The position numbers were made by a program, and so were the translations under genes. This document shows positions 1 through 63,859 of a DNA stretch of 64,000 bases, piece after piece (positions within the stretch are counted from its first letter, which is position 1; each line of letters starts with the position of its first letter). The DNA lies in assembly GCF_009618275.1 (NCBI RefSeq), contig NZ_WIAD01000031.1, positions 1-64,000 of the forward strand, written 5' to 3'. The stretch comes from Roseimaritima sediminicola. Lineage in GTDB: Bacteria; Planctomycetota; Planctomycetia; Pirellulales; Pirellulaceae. Under the pieces are notes generated by a model. The model worked only from the letters and a program-made list of their open reading frames with translations. It had not been told where the DNA came from and ran no database searches.

Positions 1-103
1 AAGCTTTCGAGCGACGCCGGTCGCGCTGGAGTCCAGGCTTCAGCCGCTCAAAGAGAACCGACCCGGGACAGTGCACGAAGGATCCGGCCGGGGACAGTGC
101 ACG

Positions 104-902
104 AAGGGGGGAGGAACAGGGACGGAGCCGACCTCGGCGCGCCGATGCTAGCTGCACCGAATCGCGAAGCGATGGCAGTTGATAGCCTCGGATGCCAATC
201 CGAGGTAGAAGCCCCCAAGATACGCCGGAAGTCGCGGAGCGACGGCACCAACCGTGCGGGGACAGTGCACGACCGTGCGGGGACAGTGCACCAACCGGCC
301 GGGGACAGTGCACGAACCGGCCGGGGACAGTGCACGAACCGGCCGGGGACAGTGCACGAAGAGGGGAGGGACAGGGACGGAGCCGACCTCGGCGTGCCGA
401 TGCTAGCTGCATCGAATCGCGAAGCGATGGCAGTTGATAGCCTCGGATGCCAATCCGAGGTAGGAGACCCCCAAAATACGCCGGAAGTCGCGGAGCGACG
501 GCATAGACCGTGCGGGGACAGTGCATGAACCGGCCGGGGACAGTGCACGAAGGCCGGGGACAGTGCACGAAGAGGGGAGGAACAGGGACAGAGCCGACCT
601 CGGCGTGCCGATGCTAGCTGCACCGAATCGCGAAGCGATGGCAGTTGATAGCCTCGGATGCCAATCCGCGGTAGGAGCCCCCGAAGATACGTCGGAAGTC
701 GCGGAGCGACGGCATAGGGGACGGGGAACCGACCGTGCGGGGACAGTGCACGAAGAGGGGAGGAACAGGGACGGAGCCGACCTCGGCGTGCCGATGCTAG
801 CTGCATCGAATCGCGAAGCGATGGCAGTTGATAGCCTCGGATGCCAATCCGAGGTAGAAGCCCCCAAGATACGCCGGAAGTCGCGGAGCGACGGCATAGG
901 GG
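104..902. repeat. Four copies of a 147-bp hairpin-rich unit
   Basis: Near-identical units lie at about 104-247, 360-506, 571-718 and 754-902. Each opens with a GAGGGGAGG(A/G)ACAGGGAC-type segment and ends with GTCGCGGAGCGACGGCA. Each unit contains several short inverted repeats, the clearest being CCTCGGATGCCAATCCGAGG (186-205, 441-460, 835-854; one mismatch in the copy at 652-671), plus TCGCGAAGCGA and GTCGCGGAGCGAC. The spacers between units are variable numbers of GGGGACAGTGCACGAA (about 11 copies in 64-760). Open frames across this block exist only because the repeats lack stops. The block looks like a mosaic of REP-like elements rather than coding DNA. Confidence 0.8.
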
Positions 903-912
903 ACGAGGAACA

Positions 913-1172
913 GGGACAGAGCTTGCCCCGACGTAACGTGCTAGCAACCAACTCGTGCGATGACTGTCCCCGACCGCAGTTGGTAAAGCCTTGTCCCTGT
1001 CGCCCCTCCAGGGCTTTGCGGATGGTTTGATTGCGTTTCCCCAGGCTCGCGCCTGGGGCTACCACCTGCCGTCGCTCCGCGACTCCGGAACGGAACCGGC
1101 CAGGCGCGGACGGGGACAGAGCTAGCCGCGACGTAACGTGCTAGCAACCAACTCGTGCGATGACTGTCCCCG
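913..1172. repeat. Pair of 60-bp units with GGGACAG...CTGTCCC ends
   Basis: Two copies (913-972 and 1113-1172) start GGGACAGAGCT and end GATGACTGTCCC, so their ends are inverted repeats, and they differ at only about three positions near the left end. Each contains ACGTAACGTGCTAGCAACC in the middle. Between them sits CCCAGGCTCGCGCCTGGGG (about 1040-1058), a palindromic element. A relative of it (CGAGGCTCGCGCCTACGG) recurs near 51780. GGGGACAG-type termini resemble the ends used by REP-associated tyrosine transposases; that link is an inference. Confidence 0.7.
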
Positions 1173-1199
1173 CCCGCTTCCGTGGGAGCCCGGTCATGG

Positions 1200-1605
1200 A
1201 TTGGCGCGGACTCGAGAGCAGGACAAGATTCAACTATTTCAATTGATCAAGAACGCGCATCCGGGCGATCTGCCAACGTTCGACACCCCGCTCGAGATGG
1301 CCTTGGATTCGCTCAGCAAAGTCGACGCGGCAGGACGCAGGTTGATCGTCCTGACCGACGGCGACCCGGTCTTGCAAGACACCGCGATCCTGGACAGGTA
1401 TGAACAGGCGGGAATCCAGATCGACGTTGTCCACGCGGAAATTCACGCTCCCAAGTACCGCGAGACGCCACAACGGATGGCCCGCCGAACCGGTGGCAAG
1501 TACATCCAAATCGGGCGGGATAAGCTCGATCAGGCGATTCCCAGAGTTCTTGCCCAGCGGACACGCGATTGCATCGCCTCGCTGGCCAGTGGACAGGATG
1601 ATTAA
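1200..1605 (+). pseudogene. C-terminal fragment of a von Willebrand factor A (VWA) domain protein
   Basis: The frame ending at 1605 encodes about 130 residues typical of the second half of a VWA domain: RRLIVLTDGDP (the beta-strand with its Asp), then a strand/helix segment DRYEQAGIQIDVVHAE and RTGGKYIQIG near the end. The first half of the domain, with the MIDAS DxSxS motif, is missing. The frame runs back directly into the GGGGACAG repeat block, so the gene has lost its 5' part, most likely through repeat insertion or rearrangement. An in-frame ATG at 1138 lies inside the repeat and is unlikely to be a real start. Confidence 0.65.
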
Positions 1606-1618
1606 GCAAGCGACGACA

Positions 1619-2175
1619 GCCACACAGAGCCACGCAGAGAGCTACGCAGGGACAGTGACCGCATCCCTGGCGCCCCGTATCAAACAACGTCCGCGTCAGC
1701 TAGCTGCTAGCAGTCCGACCTGCAAGCACGGCCACGCAGGGACAGTGACGAGAGCTACGCGGGGACAGTGACAGCCACACAGGGACAGAGCCACACAGGG
1801 ACAGTGACCGCATTACTAGCATCCCGTATTAACGGCGTCCGCCTCAGCTAGCTGCTAGCAGTTCCGATCTGCAAGCACGGAAAGCGACCGGGGGACAGTG
1901 CAAGCGACACACGGGGACAGCGACACACGGGGACAGCGACACACGGGGACAGCGACACACGGGGACAGTGCAGCGATCGGGATAGCTGCTAGCAGGCTGA
2001 TGTGCGTGCCCTGTCCCTGGACGCGCGACGACCGGGGACAGTGCAGTGAGCAGCGACGCGAGGGACGGCCACGCGGGGACGGCCACGCGGGGACAGTGAC
2101 CGAACTACTGGCGCCAGTACTGCCAGCGTCCACCTCAGCTAGCTGCTAGCAGTCCCGACCTGCAAGCACTGTCCC
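1619..2175. repeat. Second GGGGACAG repeat cluster
   Basis: This stretch has no believable gene. It holds many GGGACAGTG and GGGACAGCG motifs, including four tandem copies of CACACGGGGACAGCGA at about 1906-1968. It also has three copies of a 42-bp element at about 1688-1729, 1836-1878 and 2127-2169. That element begins CGTCC(G/A)C and contains TCAGCTAGCTGCTAGCAG, with the perfect palindrome CTGCTAGCAG, and ends CTGCAAGCAC. The third copy ends in inverted CTGTCCCC at about 2168-2175. Composition and motif match the block at 64-1172, so the two blocks flank the VWA fragment. Confidence 0.75.
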
Positions 2176-2343
2176 CGGCCGAGTCGCTCTCGGAGGAGAC
2201 AATCCTCACGTTCAAGATTCGTTCTCGACCAGGACTGATAGGAACGGAAAATTCCTATTCGATCGTGTTCCCCCCCCATTCCATCCTCGTTATCTCCCGT
2301 CGTTTCCGTCTGGCAGAAAACACGATTAAGTTCGAGTGAAAAC

Positions 2344-3237
2344 GTGCCGCTCGACTTGCAGCCCGGTCAAACGCACACAGTCGATTTCGGCACCGGCGTC
2401 GTGGTCCGGGGACGAGTCAAACCATCGGGCAAAGTGGCTTCGAGTTTGGACATGAACTATTGTCTCAACTTTTTCTTGAAGCGGGCTTCCGGTATCGATC
2501 CTCCCGAACCGATTCGACGCGCAGGATTTGACTGGCGTCACGGTTGGTCGTTTAATCTCCGAAACTCGGAAGAAGGACGAAGGTTTCTTTCGACGCTTCC
2601 ATATCATTTCGTCAAATTTCAATCAGACGGATCATTCGAAATTCACGGGGTTGAGCCGGGGGATTACCAATTTGCAATCTCAATCTATGAACCGCCAGAG
2701 GGTTGCTTGATTGATCCGGTCGGTCTCGATGTCGTCGACGTATCGGTCGGTAACCAGGATCTCGACTTGGGCGAAATCGAAGTCGAAGTGAAACTTGGTC
2801 CGCAAGTCGGCGAACGGTTTCCGAACTTTCGCTTTGCCAAAATGTCCCGGGACGAATCAGGTTCGATCGCAGATTTCACCGGCCGTTATCTGCTGATCGA
2901 TTTTTGGGCAACGTGGTGCGCACCATGCATCAAGCAACTGCCCGACGTCCGGACGGCCGCCAATCGATGGGATTCAGAGAAAGTGGCCGTGCTTAGCGTC
3001 AGTCTTGATGAGGATTCCGATCACGCGAGAAAGTTCATTTTGGAAAAGCAGGTGGATTGGCCGCAGGCACTTTTGGCAGGTCGCGACACACCCGTGGTTC
3101 GACAGCAACTTGGCATCAGTTCCGTGCCAATACACTACGTGCTCGATCCCGAAGGCACTATTTTACTCCGCACCTTTAAGCTTGACGAAGCTGTCACCTT
3201 CATCGATAAGAAGCTAGACTCATCTGATTCGGAGTAG
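2344..3237 (+). CDS. TlpA/redoxin-like thioredoxin-fold protein, probably 5'-truncated
   Basis: The C-terminal half (about residues 155-290) is a TlpA/ResA-type thioredoxin domain with the redox motif WCAPC in DFWATWCAPCIKQLPD, and a cis-proline segment SSVPIHYVLDPEG. The N-terminal half looks like beta-sandwich modules of the carboxypeptidase-regulatory type (DGSFEIHGVEPGDYQFAI). Planctomycete relatives normally have a signal peptide and several hundred more residues. Here the frame is open back to a stop at 2239-2241 with only a GTG at 2344 and no signal peptide or ribosome site. I infer that the 5' part was lost next to the repeat block. If expressed it would lack an export signal. Confidence 0.65.
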   Translation: MPLDLQPGQTHTVDFGTGVVVRGRVKPSGKVASSLDMNYCLNFFLKRASGIDPPEPIRRAGFDWRHGWSFNLRNSEEGRRFLSTLPYHFVKFQSDGSFEIHGVEPGDYQFAISIYEPPEGCLIDPVGLDVVDVSVGNQDLDLGEIEVEVKLGPQVGERFPNFRFAKMSRDESGSIADFTGRYLLIDFWATWCAPCIKQLPDVRTAANRWDSEKVAVLSVSLDEDSDHARKFILEKQVDWPQALLAGRDTPVVRQQLGISSVPIHYVLDPEGTILLRTFKLDEAVTFIDKKLDSSDSE

Positions 3238-35884: not shown

Positions 35885-38800
35885 TCAGGCTTGCAGGCAG
35901 CGTCGCAGTTCGCTTTCCAGACGCGTCAGTTCGGCGCGCAAGCGTCGGCAGAGGGACTCCGCCTCGGCCAGCGCCGCGTCCTTGCCCGCCTGTTCGAGCC
36001 GTTGTGCGGTTTCGAAGGCGGCCTTGGCAAAGAAGTTGCCGCTGCCACCCTTGATCGTGTGGGCGTGTTGACACACCCCGGCGGCGTCATCGGCCGCGAT
36101 GGCTTGTTCGAGGCTCTCGATCAACTGCGGGACCAGGTCGAAGAACGATTGGATCATCTCCTCCAACAGCTCCTCGTCGTCCTCGTACTCCGCCGCCAGT
36201 TCTTCCTCGTCGAACACCTCCTCGACCGGCTGCTGGTTCGCCAGCCGGTCGGCATCGGCCGCAGCACTTGCGCCGCGGTCGGCCCCGCCGGCAGCATTCG
36301 GTTCCGCCGCAGCATTCGGTTCCGCCGCGGCTTTTAATTCCGCCTCGGCATTCGGTTCCACCTCGGCATTCGGTTCCACCTCAGCTTTTAATTCCGCCTC
36401 GGCTTTTGGTTCCGCCTCGGCTTTTGGTTCCGCCTCGGCTTTTGGTTCCGCCGCGGCTTTGGGTTCGCCTTCGCCGGGTGGCACGCCGGGCGGGGCGGCG
36501 GCTGCGTTGGTTTTCTGGATAACCTGCTCGATAGTGGTATACAGTGCTTTGCGGCGGACGGGTTTGGAGACGTAGCCATCCATACCGGCGTCCAAGCAGC
36601 GTTGGGCGTCGCCCTTCATGGCATGAGCGGTCATGGCGATGATGGGCAGGTGTCGGCCGCTGGCCTCTTCCGCCTCGCGAATCGCTTTGGTGGCTGCAAA
36701 CCCATCCATTTCCGGCATCTGGATATCGGTCAGTAACAGGTCGAAATCTTCTTTCCCGAGGACTTCGATGGCTTCGCGGCCGTTGTTGGCGACCACCACG
36801 GTGTGGCCTCGTTTTTCCAGCAGACGCACGGCCAATTGCTGATTGGGCGGGTGGTCCTCGGCCAACAGGATTCGCAGCGGCGCGGTCGTGGCCGAGTCCT
36901 CGTTGTCGGCGGCCGGCGGTTTGGGCAACAGGGATCCACTCGCGCCCATCGCCATGCCGATTTCCTCCAGCAGCTGCGATTGTTTGACCGGTTTGGTCAG
37001 CAACGCGGCCACGTTGATGGCTTTTGCACGGGCGGAGTCACCGCTGCTGCGCGACGAGGTCAGCATCATCGCGGTCACGTCCTGCAGTTTGGATTGCGTC
37101 CGCACCCAGCCCAGGAAATCAAAACCGTCCATGCCCGGCATGTTGACGTCGGACAGAATCAGCTGAAACGGCGGCGGATCGGACTCACCCAGCATCGCAA
37201 TGGCTCGCTGAGGGCTGTCGACGATCGTCGGAACCAGGCCCCACTGCGACAGCATTTCATTCAGGATTTTGAGGTTCGTGTGGTTGTCGTCGACCACCAG
37301 TACTCGCAGCCCCTGCAACTCGCTCAGCTCGGCGGCCACCGGTATCGTGGCCGGATCTTGAACGGCAAATCGAGCTGTAAAGTGGAACGTCGTGCCGATC
37401 CCGACGGTGCTTTCGGCCCAGATTCGCCCATCCATCAAGGCCACCAATTGACTGGAGATCGACAGTCCCAGTCCGGTCCCGCCGAACTTGCGGCTGGTCG
37501 AGGTATCGGCCTGGTCGAAGGCCCCGAATACCTTGTCGATCAAATGTTCTGGAATCCCGATGCCGGTGTCCGAAACGGCGAAGTGCAAAAGCACCGTTTC
37601 TTGGTCGCGAGATTCGATATCGACTTTGAGAACGACTTCACCCTCCTCGGTAAATTTGACGGCGTTGCCGATCAGGTTCACGACGATTTGTCGAAGTCGG
37701 CCCGGATCGCCGAGCAGGTAATCCGGAACATCGGGCAAGACGTGGCAGGCCAGTTCCAGACCCTTCTTGTGAGCGCGGACGGCCAAGGTATGCGTGGCAT
37801 CGCCCAGCACGTCGCGGAGCCGAAAGCTGACCGTATCCAGATCCAGTTTGCCGGCTTCGATCTTAGAAAAGTCCAGGATGTCATTGATCAACATCAAGAG
37901 GGCTTCGCCGGAGGACAACACGGTCTGCAGGTATTCGCGTTGTTCGCGATTTAGGTCGGTGTCGAGCGCCAACTCGCTCATGCCGATGATCGCGTTCATC
38001 GGCGTGCGAATTTCGTGGCTCATATTGGCCAGGAAATCGCCTTTGGCCTGACTGGCCGATTCGGCTGCCAACCGGGCTTCGTTCAGTTCGGCGGTGCGCT
38101 GTTGAACGGTTTCCTCCAGCGTATCGCGGTGTCGCCGCAGCTCTTCGGTGCGCTGCATGACCAGACGTTTCAGCGAACGGTTCCAGGCGACAATCGCGCC
38201 GATCAACGCCAGGGTGGACAGGACCACGATCCAGAATCCACGCTGTTGGTACAGCGGTGTCGGTGGGGGCAGAGGCGTCACCCAACGATTGGTGATCACT
38301 TTGCGCTGTTCCGGAGAAATCGTATCCAGACCTTTTTGCAGAATCCCTACCAGTTCCGGCCAGTCGCTGCGGACGCAGCATCCCATGTGGTAGACAAAGC
38401 CGCTTTCGCCCGCGACGCGCACATTGGCGATGCCTTCGCTCTCGATCACGTAGGAAGCCGAAGCGTAGTCACTGATGAAGGCGGTGACGGCTCCGGAAGA
38501 AACCGCGAACAAGCCCTCGCGAGCCGTCAGCACGGGGACCAGTTCGAGGTCCGGGTGATTGGCTTGCAGGTAGCGATGGGTCGCGTACCCTTCGGCTACC
38601 GCCACGCGTTGCCCCTTGAGGGCCTGCATGTCCAAGGTTTCGTCGCCGTGGCGAACCAGGATCACCGCCGGAAAATGAATGTATGCTTCGGTAAAGCGAG
38701 CGTACTCCAAACGGTCGGGCGTTTCGGCGGCCAGCGGGAACATGTCGACTTCGCGCTCGCGCAGCATGCGCAGGTTTTCCGACCAGGAATCCGTCTGCAC

Positions 38801-48463: not shown

Positions 48464-48691
48464 GTGGCATAGGCTTCCAGCCCAGTGGCATAGGCTTCCA
48501 GCCTGTGAAAACCCAGTGGCATAGGCTTCCAGCCTGTGAAAACCCAGTGGCATAGGCTTCCAGCCTGTGAAACCCAGTGGCATAGGCTTCCAGCCTGTGA
48601 AAGCCAGTGGCATAGGCTTCCAGCCTGTGAAAACCCAGTGGCATAGGCTTCCAGCCTGTGAAACCCAGTGGCATAGGCTTCCAGCCTGTGA
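48464..48691. repeat. Eight-copy 30-bp tandem hairpin repeat
   Basis: GTGGCATAGGCTTCCAGCC begins at 48464, 48486, 48516, 48547, 48577, 48607, 48638 and 48668, with 30-31 bp spacing except the first (22). Most units continue TGTGAAAACCCA. In RNA, CAUAGGCU and AGCCUGUG pair into an 8-bp stem around UCC. Single copies occur at 41948-41970 (inverted) and 51692-51716. There are no unique spacers, so this is not a CRISPR. Open frames across it in the minus strand read as GFHRLEAYAT repeats and are artefacts. Confidence 0.88.
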
Positions 48692-48989
48692 AGGAAAACG
48701 CCTAAAAAAATTCCCGTCACCGAAGGTTGTCGGCGCCAATTCGCCGTGACACTGAGTACTTGAGCGCTGGACGCCTCTGCAGTGCCGCCGAGCGACGGCC
48801 GAGCTGGCTGCATCGCGACGGTGGTCGTCTCGGCCGCCATGGCTCGCCGGTCCGCCAACCGCCTGCGACGCTACCGCCCGCGCCGCGTGTCGATTTGCCG
48901 CGACCAAACAGCGACGAAACCGAGCTTCCTGGCACCGTGATTGCGGCATATGCCCCGAACTGATCCACCGATTTGGAGGGAAGCACCAC
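48692..48989. other. Non-coding stretch before the hemerythrin remnant
   Basis: About 300 bp between the hairpin array and the gene remnant at 48990. I see no credible gene; the open frames lack recognisable motifs. It may contain decayed 5' sequence of the remnant gene. Confidence 0.4.
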
Positions 48990-51632: not shown

Positions 51633-52040
51633 GTCCGCCCCGCCAGATACGTCGACCCTGCCGCACCTATGCCGCCCAGCGGGCTGAGCCAGTGGCATAG
51701 GCTTCCAGCCCGTGGTGTTAAGGAGCCGTGCTGGGTGTTGGAACCGGCTGGGCTGCGGCCGGATCGATCGGGATGAGACCCGAGGCTCGCGCCTACGGCT
51801 AATTGGGTTACCGTCGCCGCCAGCCCGAAGGGCGACACAGCCCCTGCCGGGGACGTGAGTCCCCGGTTGCCAGCCCCCCCAAAGAATCTCAAGCCCCGGA
51901 GGGGCGACACAGCGGCCCGCCTGCGGAGCGACTATACTTTGGGCTCCCACCGAAACCATCTCCCCGGCCTTTGCTAAGCCTCGAGCAGGCTTCGTCGCTG
52001 GCCGAGCCGGCCCCTACCTCGTTTTTGCCCGGAGTCCACC
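51633..52040. repeat. Intergenic stretch with several dispersed elements
   Basis: About 400 bp without a gene. It contains one GTGGCATAGGCTTCCAGCC copy (51692), a CGAGGCTCGCGCCTACGG element (about 51780), the hairpin CCGGGGACGTGAGTCCCCGG (about 51849-51868), and two near-copies of GGGCGACACAGC (about 51829 and 51901). It looks like a landing place for the same families of small repeats seen elsewhere in the window. Confidence 0.6.
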
Positions 52041-63064: not shown

Positions 63065-63859
63065 AAATCAAAGGGGGCAGGCCTCTTTGATGTCCGTCTT
63101 GGGAAAGCGGACGCGCTGTCGGCCTCTTGGACGCATGGTTGATTCCAAGTGAAGTCGACGTGCCGTCGACTCGACCCAGCCTTCGTCACCCAGGGGTTTG
63201 CCACGCTGGGCGGAAAGACGCACCGCTGCCAGTTCGCCCTCTGACAACGGCGTGTTGACACGCTCGGCGCAACCCGGAAGCCGCGCGGGCGGCCGAGGAG
63301 ACAGCAGCGGCGGCGGGGGCTCGGGCTTGCGAAGCCAACGCCACAACGAACTCCACCGCCAGTCTTCGGCTCGATCGACCAGTCCCGCCCGCAGGGCATT
63401 TTGCTCGACGCGATCGACAAGCCACAAAGAAATGGTCGTCGGCCTGGATGGGGAAGCTTTTGTAGCGTTGCTGATAAACATGTCCCATTCCGCTGGTGTG
63501 GTAGTGCGCGTGGTATCGCATTGTGTGCGTGCCTCCCACCCAGCCCATAAAGCGACTCATCTCCCCGTCAACCAGTGGGCGGAGCACCAGATGATAGTGA
63601 TTGGGCATCAGTTGAAACGAGTACAACTCGATTTGATGAATCTGTAAGGCTTCGTACAGGATTCGCTCAAACGCCTCGTAATCAGCGTCTTTGTGGAAGA
63701 TGGTCGCGCGCAAGTTGCCTCGATTAAGGGCGTGGTACAGTCCGCCCGCCTCGTCGGCTAGTGGTGGTCTCGGCATTGGCTCGGTCCCCTCCAAGAACAG
63801 GAAACCCCGTTCTACAGCGATCCTAGATAGTCATCAAAGAGACCTGACCCCTTTGATTT
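63065..63859. mobile_element. REP-associated tyrosine transposase unit with 30-bp inverted ends
   Basis: Left end 63065-63094 (AAATCAAAGGGGGCAGGCCT and on to CTTTGATGTC) and right end 63830-63859 (reverse complement AAATCAAAGGGGTCAGGTCT to CTTTGATGAC) are near-perfect inverted copies. Each end itself folds (ATCAAAG pairs with CTTTGAT). They enclose a broken Y1-type transposase gene. A further partial GGGGTCAGGCCT lies at about 62937-62948. Confidence 0.85.
63068..63794 (-). pseudogene. REP-associated tyrosine transposase (RAYT), frameshifted
   Basis: The first 126 codons (start near 63794 or the ATG seven codons in) carry the IS200/RAYT fold: GGLYHALNRGNLRATIFHKD, the HUH motif in LMPNHYHLVLRP, and the catalytic Tyr region HVYQQRYKSFPIQ. 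After FFVACR the family sequence switches frame: EQNALRAGLVDRAEDWRWSS and RVNTPLSEGELAAVR are read in the next frame, down to the stop at 63068, inside the left inverted repeat. A single extra base at about 63408-63416 (TCGC where a codon is expected) explains it. Either inactivated or a sequencing slip. Confidence 0.88.

Follow-up and report, generated by a model that had tools for sequence, protein, structure and literature searches.

What kind of repeats fill the start of this contig, and did they break the two genes that lie beside them? The window, a stretch of 64,000 nt from Roseimaritima sediminicola, opens with two blocks of short repeats, next to two genes that lack their 5' ends. The array is very probably composed of two families of short hairpin mobile DNA: Acido-Lenti-1 (AL1), serving as substrate of a TnpA clade of the subclass 1.2 type, and a TIR element headed by GGGGACAG. 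The initial annotation, made from the sequence alone, had read the region as a zone of gene decay driven by repeats that were left unnamed. This reading does not go far enough, since the hairpins can be identified; the name AL1 and the link of the hairpins to a transposase family are additions to it.

Layout of the Repeat Array

Both of the GGGGACAG-type repeat blocks described in the initial annotation, one of them with four units of ≈147 bp, are present in window 1–2241 (Table 1). GGGGACAG or its complement occurs 22 times in this region (19 on the forward and three on the reverse strand), whereas the 61.8 kb that follow it have two occurrences; the whole genome contains 373 occurrences, compared to 92 for a reversed-pattern control. 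The window and contig C110 share their first base, and the assembly therefore cuts block 1, with loss of the left flank of the array. GGGGACAG repeats are also found near the ends of contigs C22, C95, C144, C145 and C166, and their occurrence at several contig ends, including that of C110, suggests that such arrays break the assembly.

Table 1. Coordinates of repeats and gene remnants at the start of the window.
Feature	Position	Strand	Evidence or remark
Repeat block 1: GGGGACAG tracts, four composite units, AL1 copies	1–1171	.	from contig end
Composite unit 1, 146 bp	102–247	+	GGGACAG-type half element + AL1 + half AL1
AL1	160–205	-	46.0 bits; Rfam and own model; DNA fold z -3.45
Half AL1, second hairpin only	231–247	-	own model
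Tandem tract, 22-bp period	245–360	+	carries GGGGACAGTGCAC
Composite unit 2, 149 bp	357–505	+	
AL1	415–460	-	46.0 bits; Rfam and own model
Half AL1, second hairpin only	487–504	-	own model
Composite unit 3, 149 bp	568–716	+	
AL1, in unit 568–716	626–671	-	below Rfam listing; 64.8 bits by own model only
Half AL1, second hairpin only	698–715	-	own model
Composite unit 4, 148 bp	751–898	+	
AL1	809–854	-	46.0 bits; Rfam and own model
Half AL1, second hairpin only	880–897	-	own model
Near copy (97%) of the TIR-bounded element 1112–1171	913–971	+	
AL1 of another subfamily	1039–1084	+	46.2 bits; Rfam and own model
TIR-bounded element GGGGACAG...CTGTCCCC, 60 bp	1112–1171	+	intact
Remnant of kinase-linked gene ("VWA" by reading)	1183–1605	+	homology to C44 paralogue
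Repeat block 2: GGGACAG-headed elements of ≈82–88 bp, GGGGACAG tract	1616–2176	.	
Tandem tract of GGGGACAG, 16-bp period, within repeat block 2	1903–1968		
TIR-bounded element GGGGACAG...CTGTCCCC, 88 bp	2089–2176	+	intact
Remnant of TlpA-like gene, 5'-truncated	2213–3237	+	frame change at C8 run 2270–2277

The four units are composites, and units 1–3 are 96–98% identical to unit 4. The left part of each resembles half of a GGGGACAG TIR element located on contig C103, and is followed by a 90-bp stretch that holds one full and one half AL1. When the left part was compared with five TIR elements in both orientations, two of the five, in one orientation, gave a score of 32, against 21 for the best of 200 shuffles, while none of the other eight comparisons rose above the shuffles. 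Further occurrences of the 90-bp stretch, ending at similar places, lie on at least seven other contigs (among the 45 of 128 matches listed), and the same composite is also present inside contig C103.

Three further repeats were observed in the window. A 30-bp tandem repeat of about seven copies with a TGGCATAGGCTTCCAGCCTG core (48481–48692) may constitute a third repeat family, and a hairpin word like this repeat adjoins AL1 copies in two of the transposase loci described below (L027 and L045). An 18-bp tandem repeat of about ten copies lies at 36294–36470, and 51779–51909 contains a weak cluster of degenerate AL1-like matches (best E 0.003).

The Hairpins Belong to the Acido-Lenti-1 Family

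The hairpins match Rfam family RF01687, Acido-Lenti-1 RNA, with five full and four half copies in the window. At the Rfam gathering cut-off (37 bits), four places scored 46.0–46.2 bits, representing three of the four units and the copy at 1039–1084, which is part of a dispersed element of ≈92 bp (993–1084). RF01687 matches in the genome number at least 112, spread over 31 contigs, from 150 of 1679 candidates scored; here and in other genomes, the counts are lower bounds, since 150 or 84 candidates were scored in each. Neighboring AL1 copies within 250 bp are arranged -+ in 18 cases, -- in 14, and ++ and +- in four each. RF01687 was absent from 14 well-known control genomes. Outside the source genome, AL1 was found in Planctomycetota, Verrucomicrobiota, Sumerlaeota (BRC1), Calditrichota and other groups, and of 26 named genomes that were probed, matches were present in 24: in all 17 picked because of a flanking Rfam hit, and in seven of the nine picked without one.

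AL1 consists of an 8-pair and a 5-pair hairpin, joined by a conserved linker of 12 nt. All 13 pairs are kept among 24 copies (16 of them distinct), and nine of the 13 have changed on both sides, a degree of covariation reached by none of 500 shuffles. Two of the AL1 forms in the window, taken as single-stranded DNA, are predicted to fold exactly to the two hairpins. Read on the reverse strand, hairpin 1 carries GTAG in 14 and ATAG in 10 of the 24 own copies in the alignment, and the tnpA-linked copies elsewhere have GTAG in 23 and ATAG in 19 of 45 (a foot in 42/45). The GTAG foot is the tag of classical REPs, according to the available text of PMC3733652; GTAG proper is found in only about half of the AL1 copies.

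AL1 Adjoins an IS200-like TnpA

The genome has seven Y1 transposase genes, four of which are IS200-like. These four are single genes, with 43–78% identity to the first of them; near-identical tnpA copies with constant ends, as expected of IS200/IS605, were thus not seen. Three of them stand among AL1 copies, and the fourth, on contig C152, has a different hairpin pair. The own TnpA passes the NCBIfam IS200/IS605 model (NF033573) and fails REP_Tyr_transpos (NF047646), and its profile aligns with the solved transposases of IS608 and ISDra2, with the HuH and tyrosine regions matched. The motif Y---Q--HH is present in 81 of 84 TnpA sequences collected and HuH in all 84, and all four own enzymes have the WQ motif. 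Judged by these motifs and not by the profile of its authors, the enzymes bear the signature of TnpA_Y1 subclass 1.2. A class-3 TnpA was rejected as the enzyme of AL1, as none of the 84 sequences fit the pattern for the class-3 Y motif.

The four own TnpA proteins alone were used to fetch loci from named genomes, and the best 80 of 327 confirmed loci were analyzed; several come from one genome, and the 80 are therefore not fully independent. Rfam hits to AL1 numbered 38 at 0–300 bp from tnpA, 15 at 300–750 bp, two at 750–1500 bp, none at 1.5–3 kb and one at 3–6 kb. In terms of sequence covered, these were 38 hits in 47,334 bases within 300 bp, compared to one in 541,532 bases at 1.5–6 kb, and 21 of the 80 loci had such a hit within 300 bp. 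A model of our own, trained on the 24 own copies that lie away from any tnpA, gave 162 hits, of which 139 (E up to 0.01) were used and 23 weaker ones dropped. These fell into the same five zones as 101, 30, 3, 1 and 4 (101 hits within 300 bp against five at 1.5–6 kb), with 48 of 80 loci having AL1 within 300 bp. With both models pooled, this number was 50, and AL1 was absent within 300 bp by either model in the other 30 loci, which include those from Bacteroidota and Chlamydiota in the tree described below.

The flanking copies have a preferred orientation. The nearest upstream AL1 is on the reverse strand in 31 of 40 cases and the nearest downstream one on the forward strand in 24 of 31; in loci with AL1 on both sides, the two orientations occur together in 18 of 25. 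Further arrangements were noted in two of the loci. In Rhodopirellula solitaria, weak AL1-like matches recur every ≈234 bases downstream of tnpA, forming a tandem array (L094:6519–8680), and in L024:1501–1590 an AL1 copy abuts a GGGGACAG-ended stretch, with ≈40 bases to CTGTCCCC, so that the two families are joined there as well.

Among 60 relatives, AL1 was found in 26 of the 28 with a strong enzyme match and in seven of the 32 without (p = 1.5e-8, a value that ignores kinship). Other thresholds gave 25/27 against 8/33 and 30/37 against 3/23. The exceptions are two relatives with the enzyme and no AL1 (G022 and G043) and the seven with AL1 and no strong enzyme match. In a set of 28 Y1 loci, the best one of each genome, AL1 was near 12 of the 18 enzymes assigned by profile score to the clade of the own TnpA and near none of the 10 others. 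On a tree of the 84 enzymes, which has few columns and many unresolved forks, the flanking state is clustered (16 changes, compared to 25.3 when shuffled) and is not confined to one clade.

The GGGGACAG TIR Elements

The GGGGACAG...CTGTCCCC elements are 60–88 bp long and their ends fit GGGGWSAS, the consensus published for the ends flanking TIRYT transposases (Di Nocera 2013, PMC3733652, in the text available). No GGGGACAG was found near the seven own Y1 genes within the fetched flanks (≈1.5 kb per side where the contig allows). Three of these genes are TIRYT-like (C110:63438, C110:66696 and C97:483338) and were rejected as makers of the GGGGACAG elements, since their fetched flanks are free of GGGGACAG; they adjoin GGGGTCAG/GGGGGCAG-type motifs instead. 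The first of them lies in the window on the reverse strand (63438–63737), has an apparent frame change, and is flanked by GGGGGCAGG and GGGGTCAGG-type motifs; its second copy is located just beyond the window (C110:66696–66995). Among three plasmid homologues examined, inverted GGGGTCAGGCC ends are present in one and GGGGTCAG, in a single orientation, in another; the third has none.

The 13-mer GGGGACAGTGCAC has 65 copies in the source genome and seven in one congener; the 38 others among 40 relatives lack it. A sample of 294 genomes of the phylum included eight that were positive, among them the source genome, and the other seven had one or two copies each. GGGGACAGTGCAC is thus nearly private to the source species, and the idea that it represents a widespread family was dropped. 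No paper on the GGGGACAG repeat was among the matches listed in a literature search.

Two Gene Remnants Beside the Array

The initial annotation had described a headless VWA fragment and a headless TlpA-like gene, and both are indeed truncated at the 5' end, their homologues being far longer. The first remnant matches residues 536–680 of a 680-residue open frame elsewhere in the same genome (C44:8193–10232) with 66% identity. Residues 126–378 of this paralogue are a protein kinase domain, and 535 of its residues are absent from the remnant. The fragment gave no VWA hit in Pfam or NCBIfam, nor did the C44 protein in Pfam, and the VWA label is thus one from reading only. A second close copy of the missing kinase part was absent from the assembly, where the next best match had 39% identity, and the possibility that one resided beside another array in the genome was thereby discarded.

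The GTG at 2344 is not where the TlpA-like remnant starts. Homology to open frames of 1017 and 1307 residues in relatives begins at 2213, in another frame, and the frame switches at a run of eight C (2270–2277). This remnant would therefore be both 5'-truncated and frameshifted, unless the C8 run reflects an error in the sequencing. In the listed matches from 40 relatives, the best ones for the two remnants lie within much longer open frames, and no intact gene with exactly these starts was present.

The remnants start 12 and 37 bases past the ends of the TIR elements at 1112–1171 and 2089–2176, respectively. The proposal that repeats broke the genes gains partial support from truncations that abut TIR-bounded GGGGACAG elements; no relative with the same site free of repeats was found. 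Truncation of both genes by the repeats is plausible, and the short distances fit deletion by recombination, with the reservation that two cases are not proof.

Discussion

Our observations suggest the following model. AL1 would be a two-hairpin, REP-like element that flanks a tnpA of the subclass 1.2 type, often as an inverted pair, and the GGGGACAG family would belong to the type of element known from beside TIRYT-type Y1 transposases, with its own enzyme not found in the genome. Joining of an AL1 element to half of a GGGGACAG element may have produced the 147-bp composite, followed by tandem amplification. By analogy with IS608 and ISDra2, a TnpA dimer would bind the AL1 hairpin on single-stranded DNA at replication forks, cut at a position that the foot specifies, and then move or duplicate AL1. 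Successive insertions, together with tandem amplification, would enlarge the arrays, and recombination among the copies might delete the flanking DNA.

The position of AL1 next to one transposase family across many unrelated bacteria makes it most likely a DNA substrate of TnpA, and we regard it as most likely being mainly a REP-like DNA element handled by an IS200-like TnpA. We consider it probable that an Rfam sRNA family of many phyla is primarily the single-stranded DNA substrate of a REPtron-like system run by a subclass 1.2 TnpA_Y1. That AL1 is instead a genuine small or cis-regulatory RNA, merely riding along with transposase genes, appears improbable. Strong covariation made it an RNA candidate in the first place, it appears among the likely RNAs in Weinberg 2010, and regulation of proteases is proposed in the available text of PMC13298647. 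However, a DNA substrate explains the hairpin covariation equally well, and an RNA gene would sit uneasily with hundred-fold copies in both orientations and in tandem and inverted arrays, and with a steep enrichment at one transposase clade and none at other Y1 transposases. The two roles are compatible, since one element can be mobile DNA and functional RNA at once. A more serious alternative, which we still hold to be unlikely, is that tnpA and its two flanking AL1 copies form an ordinary IS200/IS605 insertion sequence, with the dispersed copies as MITE-like non-autonomous ends and no REPtron. TnpA does exceed the NCBIfam IS200/IS605 cut-off, and the inverted AL1 pairs in 18 of the 25 two-sided loci are regular and at similar distances. 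On the other hand, the own TnpA genes are single and divergent, where a real IS200 in relative G030 gives six equal-score matches; the genome has more than 20 AL1 copies for each of the enzymes; and subclass 1.2 is described as low in copy number and without IS ends in the accessible part of PMC6006769.

The role of the array in the loss of the two genes is less certain than the identity of its elements. Repeats piling onto already dying genes would give an identical picture, and the 5' truncations could precede the repeats. The possibility that the genes decayed first from other causes and that the repeats then filled dead space is a close contender, to which we give slightly less than even weight: REPs gather outside genes, and the internal frame change of the TlpA-like remnant need not involve repeats. 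Against this, both homologies end 12–37 bases from TIR elements, which chance decay need not produce; with two cases, this argument is weak. It is very improbable that the array is in part an assembly artefact of collapsed or chimeric repeats. The contig starts at window base 1, and other contig ends also have GGGGACAG repeats, but the composite recurs inside C103, its AL1 part is found on the other contigs noted above, and block 2 and both gene remnants are interior to the contig.

If AL1 is DNA acted on by TnpA, a likely identity emerges for an RNA family that annotation pipelines still place in genomes and that has been without a function since 2010. In that case, annotations of "Acido-Lenti-1 ncRNA" would denote mobile DNA, and published links of AL1 to gene regulation would call for another reading. 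A 2026 paper on Tannerella (PMC13298647) suggests that AL1 regulates protease genes and, in the part of it available, mentions transposases only to say that none was found near those genes; if AL1 is transposase DNA, its position there has another cause. An enzyme group of no known role would gain a testable substrate, and a third type of enzyme, neither RAYT nor classical IS200, would emerge as a driver of REP-like repeats and arrays, and perhaps of gene loss, in Planctomycetota and related phyla.

Comparison with Known Systems

The window copies share with RF01687 both the gathering score and the two-hairpin structure. Weinberg 2010 (PMC2864571, in the text available) gave the motif without a function, as a likely RNA that is not cis-regulatory, and its Rfam entry describes an sRNA gene from Acidobacteria and Lentisphaerae, whereas the copies studied here form a dispersed DNA repeat of high copy number that is tied to a transposase. 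In the literature found on AL1, RAYT, REPtron, TIRYT and planctomycetes, a search that reached few subscription papers and in which sources were available in part, there was no link between AL1 and a transposase. AL1 repeats may already figure among the GTAG families of R. baltica reported by Di Nocera; we believe that their connection to the Rfam family and to a subclass 1.2-like TnpA is new.

The TIR elements of TIRYT transposases resemble the GGGGACAG family in their motif fit, inverted ends, repeated families, dimers and clusters, and differ in that they flank a Y1 gene, while no gene flanked in this way by GGGGACAG elements was found here. TnpA_Y1 class 3, described in the available text of PMC6006769 as rarer, present in Planctomycetes and Acidobacteria, and associated with atypical structures in high copy number (≈600 in Solibacter usitatus), is similar to the enzymes studied here in its hosts and in flanking high-copy structures, but has a different Y motif, YV[VI][AENY]EQ, and the foot CnGA.

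The REPtron of REP/REPIN and RAYT offers the closest parallel in organization: high-copy palindromes with a GTAG foot, in pairs and arrays, with a Y1 HuH gene amid the copies. AL1 agrees with REP/REPIN in being a dispersed, high-copy palindrome, often in opposite pairs, and in its GTAG-type foot. However, the AL1 unit has two hairpins and a conserved 12-nt linker, unlike REP/REPIN, and where the REPtron enzyme is RAYT, that associated with AL1 is IS200-like (Y---Q--HH); an association of AL1 with RAYT (class 2 TnpA_REP) was not seen.

The enzymes themselves compare best with subclass 1.2, which Quentin 2018 (PMC6006769, as far as its text was available) characterizes by Y---Q--HH, REP "no", and occurrence in Cyanobacteria and Bacteroidetes. 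Shared features are a length of ≈150 aa (the subclass criterion being ≈148), DHVH, WQ, Y[IV]xNQxxHH, and few, divergent copies per genome. While subclass 1.2 was published without REPs or terminal structures, the pooled models place AL1 within 300 bp in 50 of the 80 loci, and the enzymes described here, mainly from Planctomycetota and from other phyla as well, are flanked by this REP-like element.
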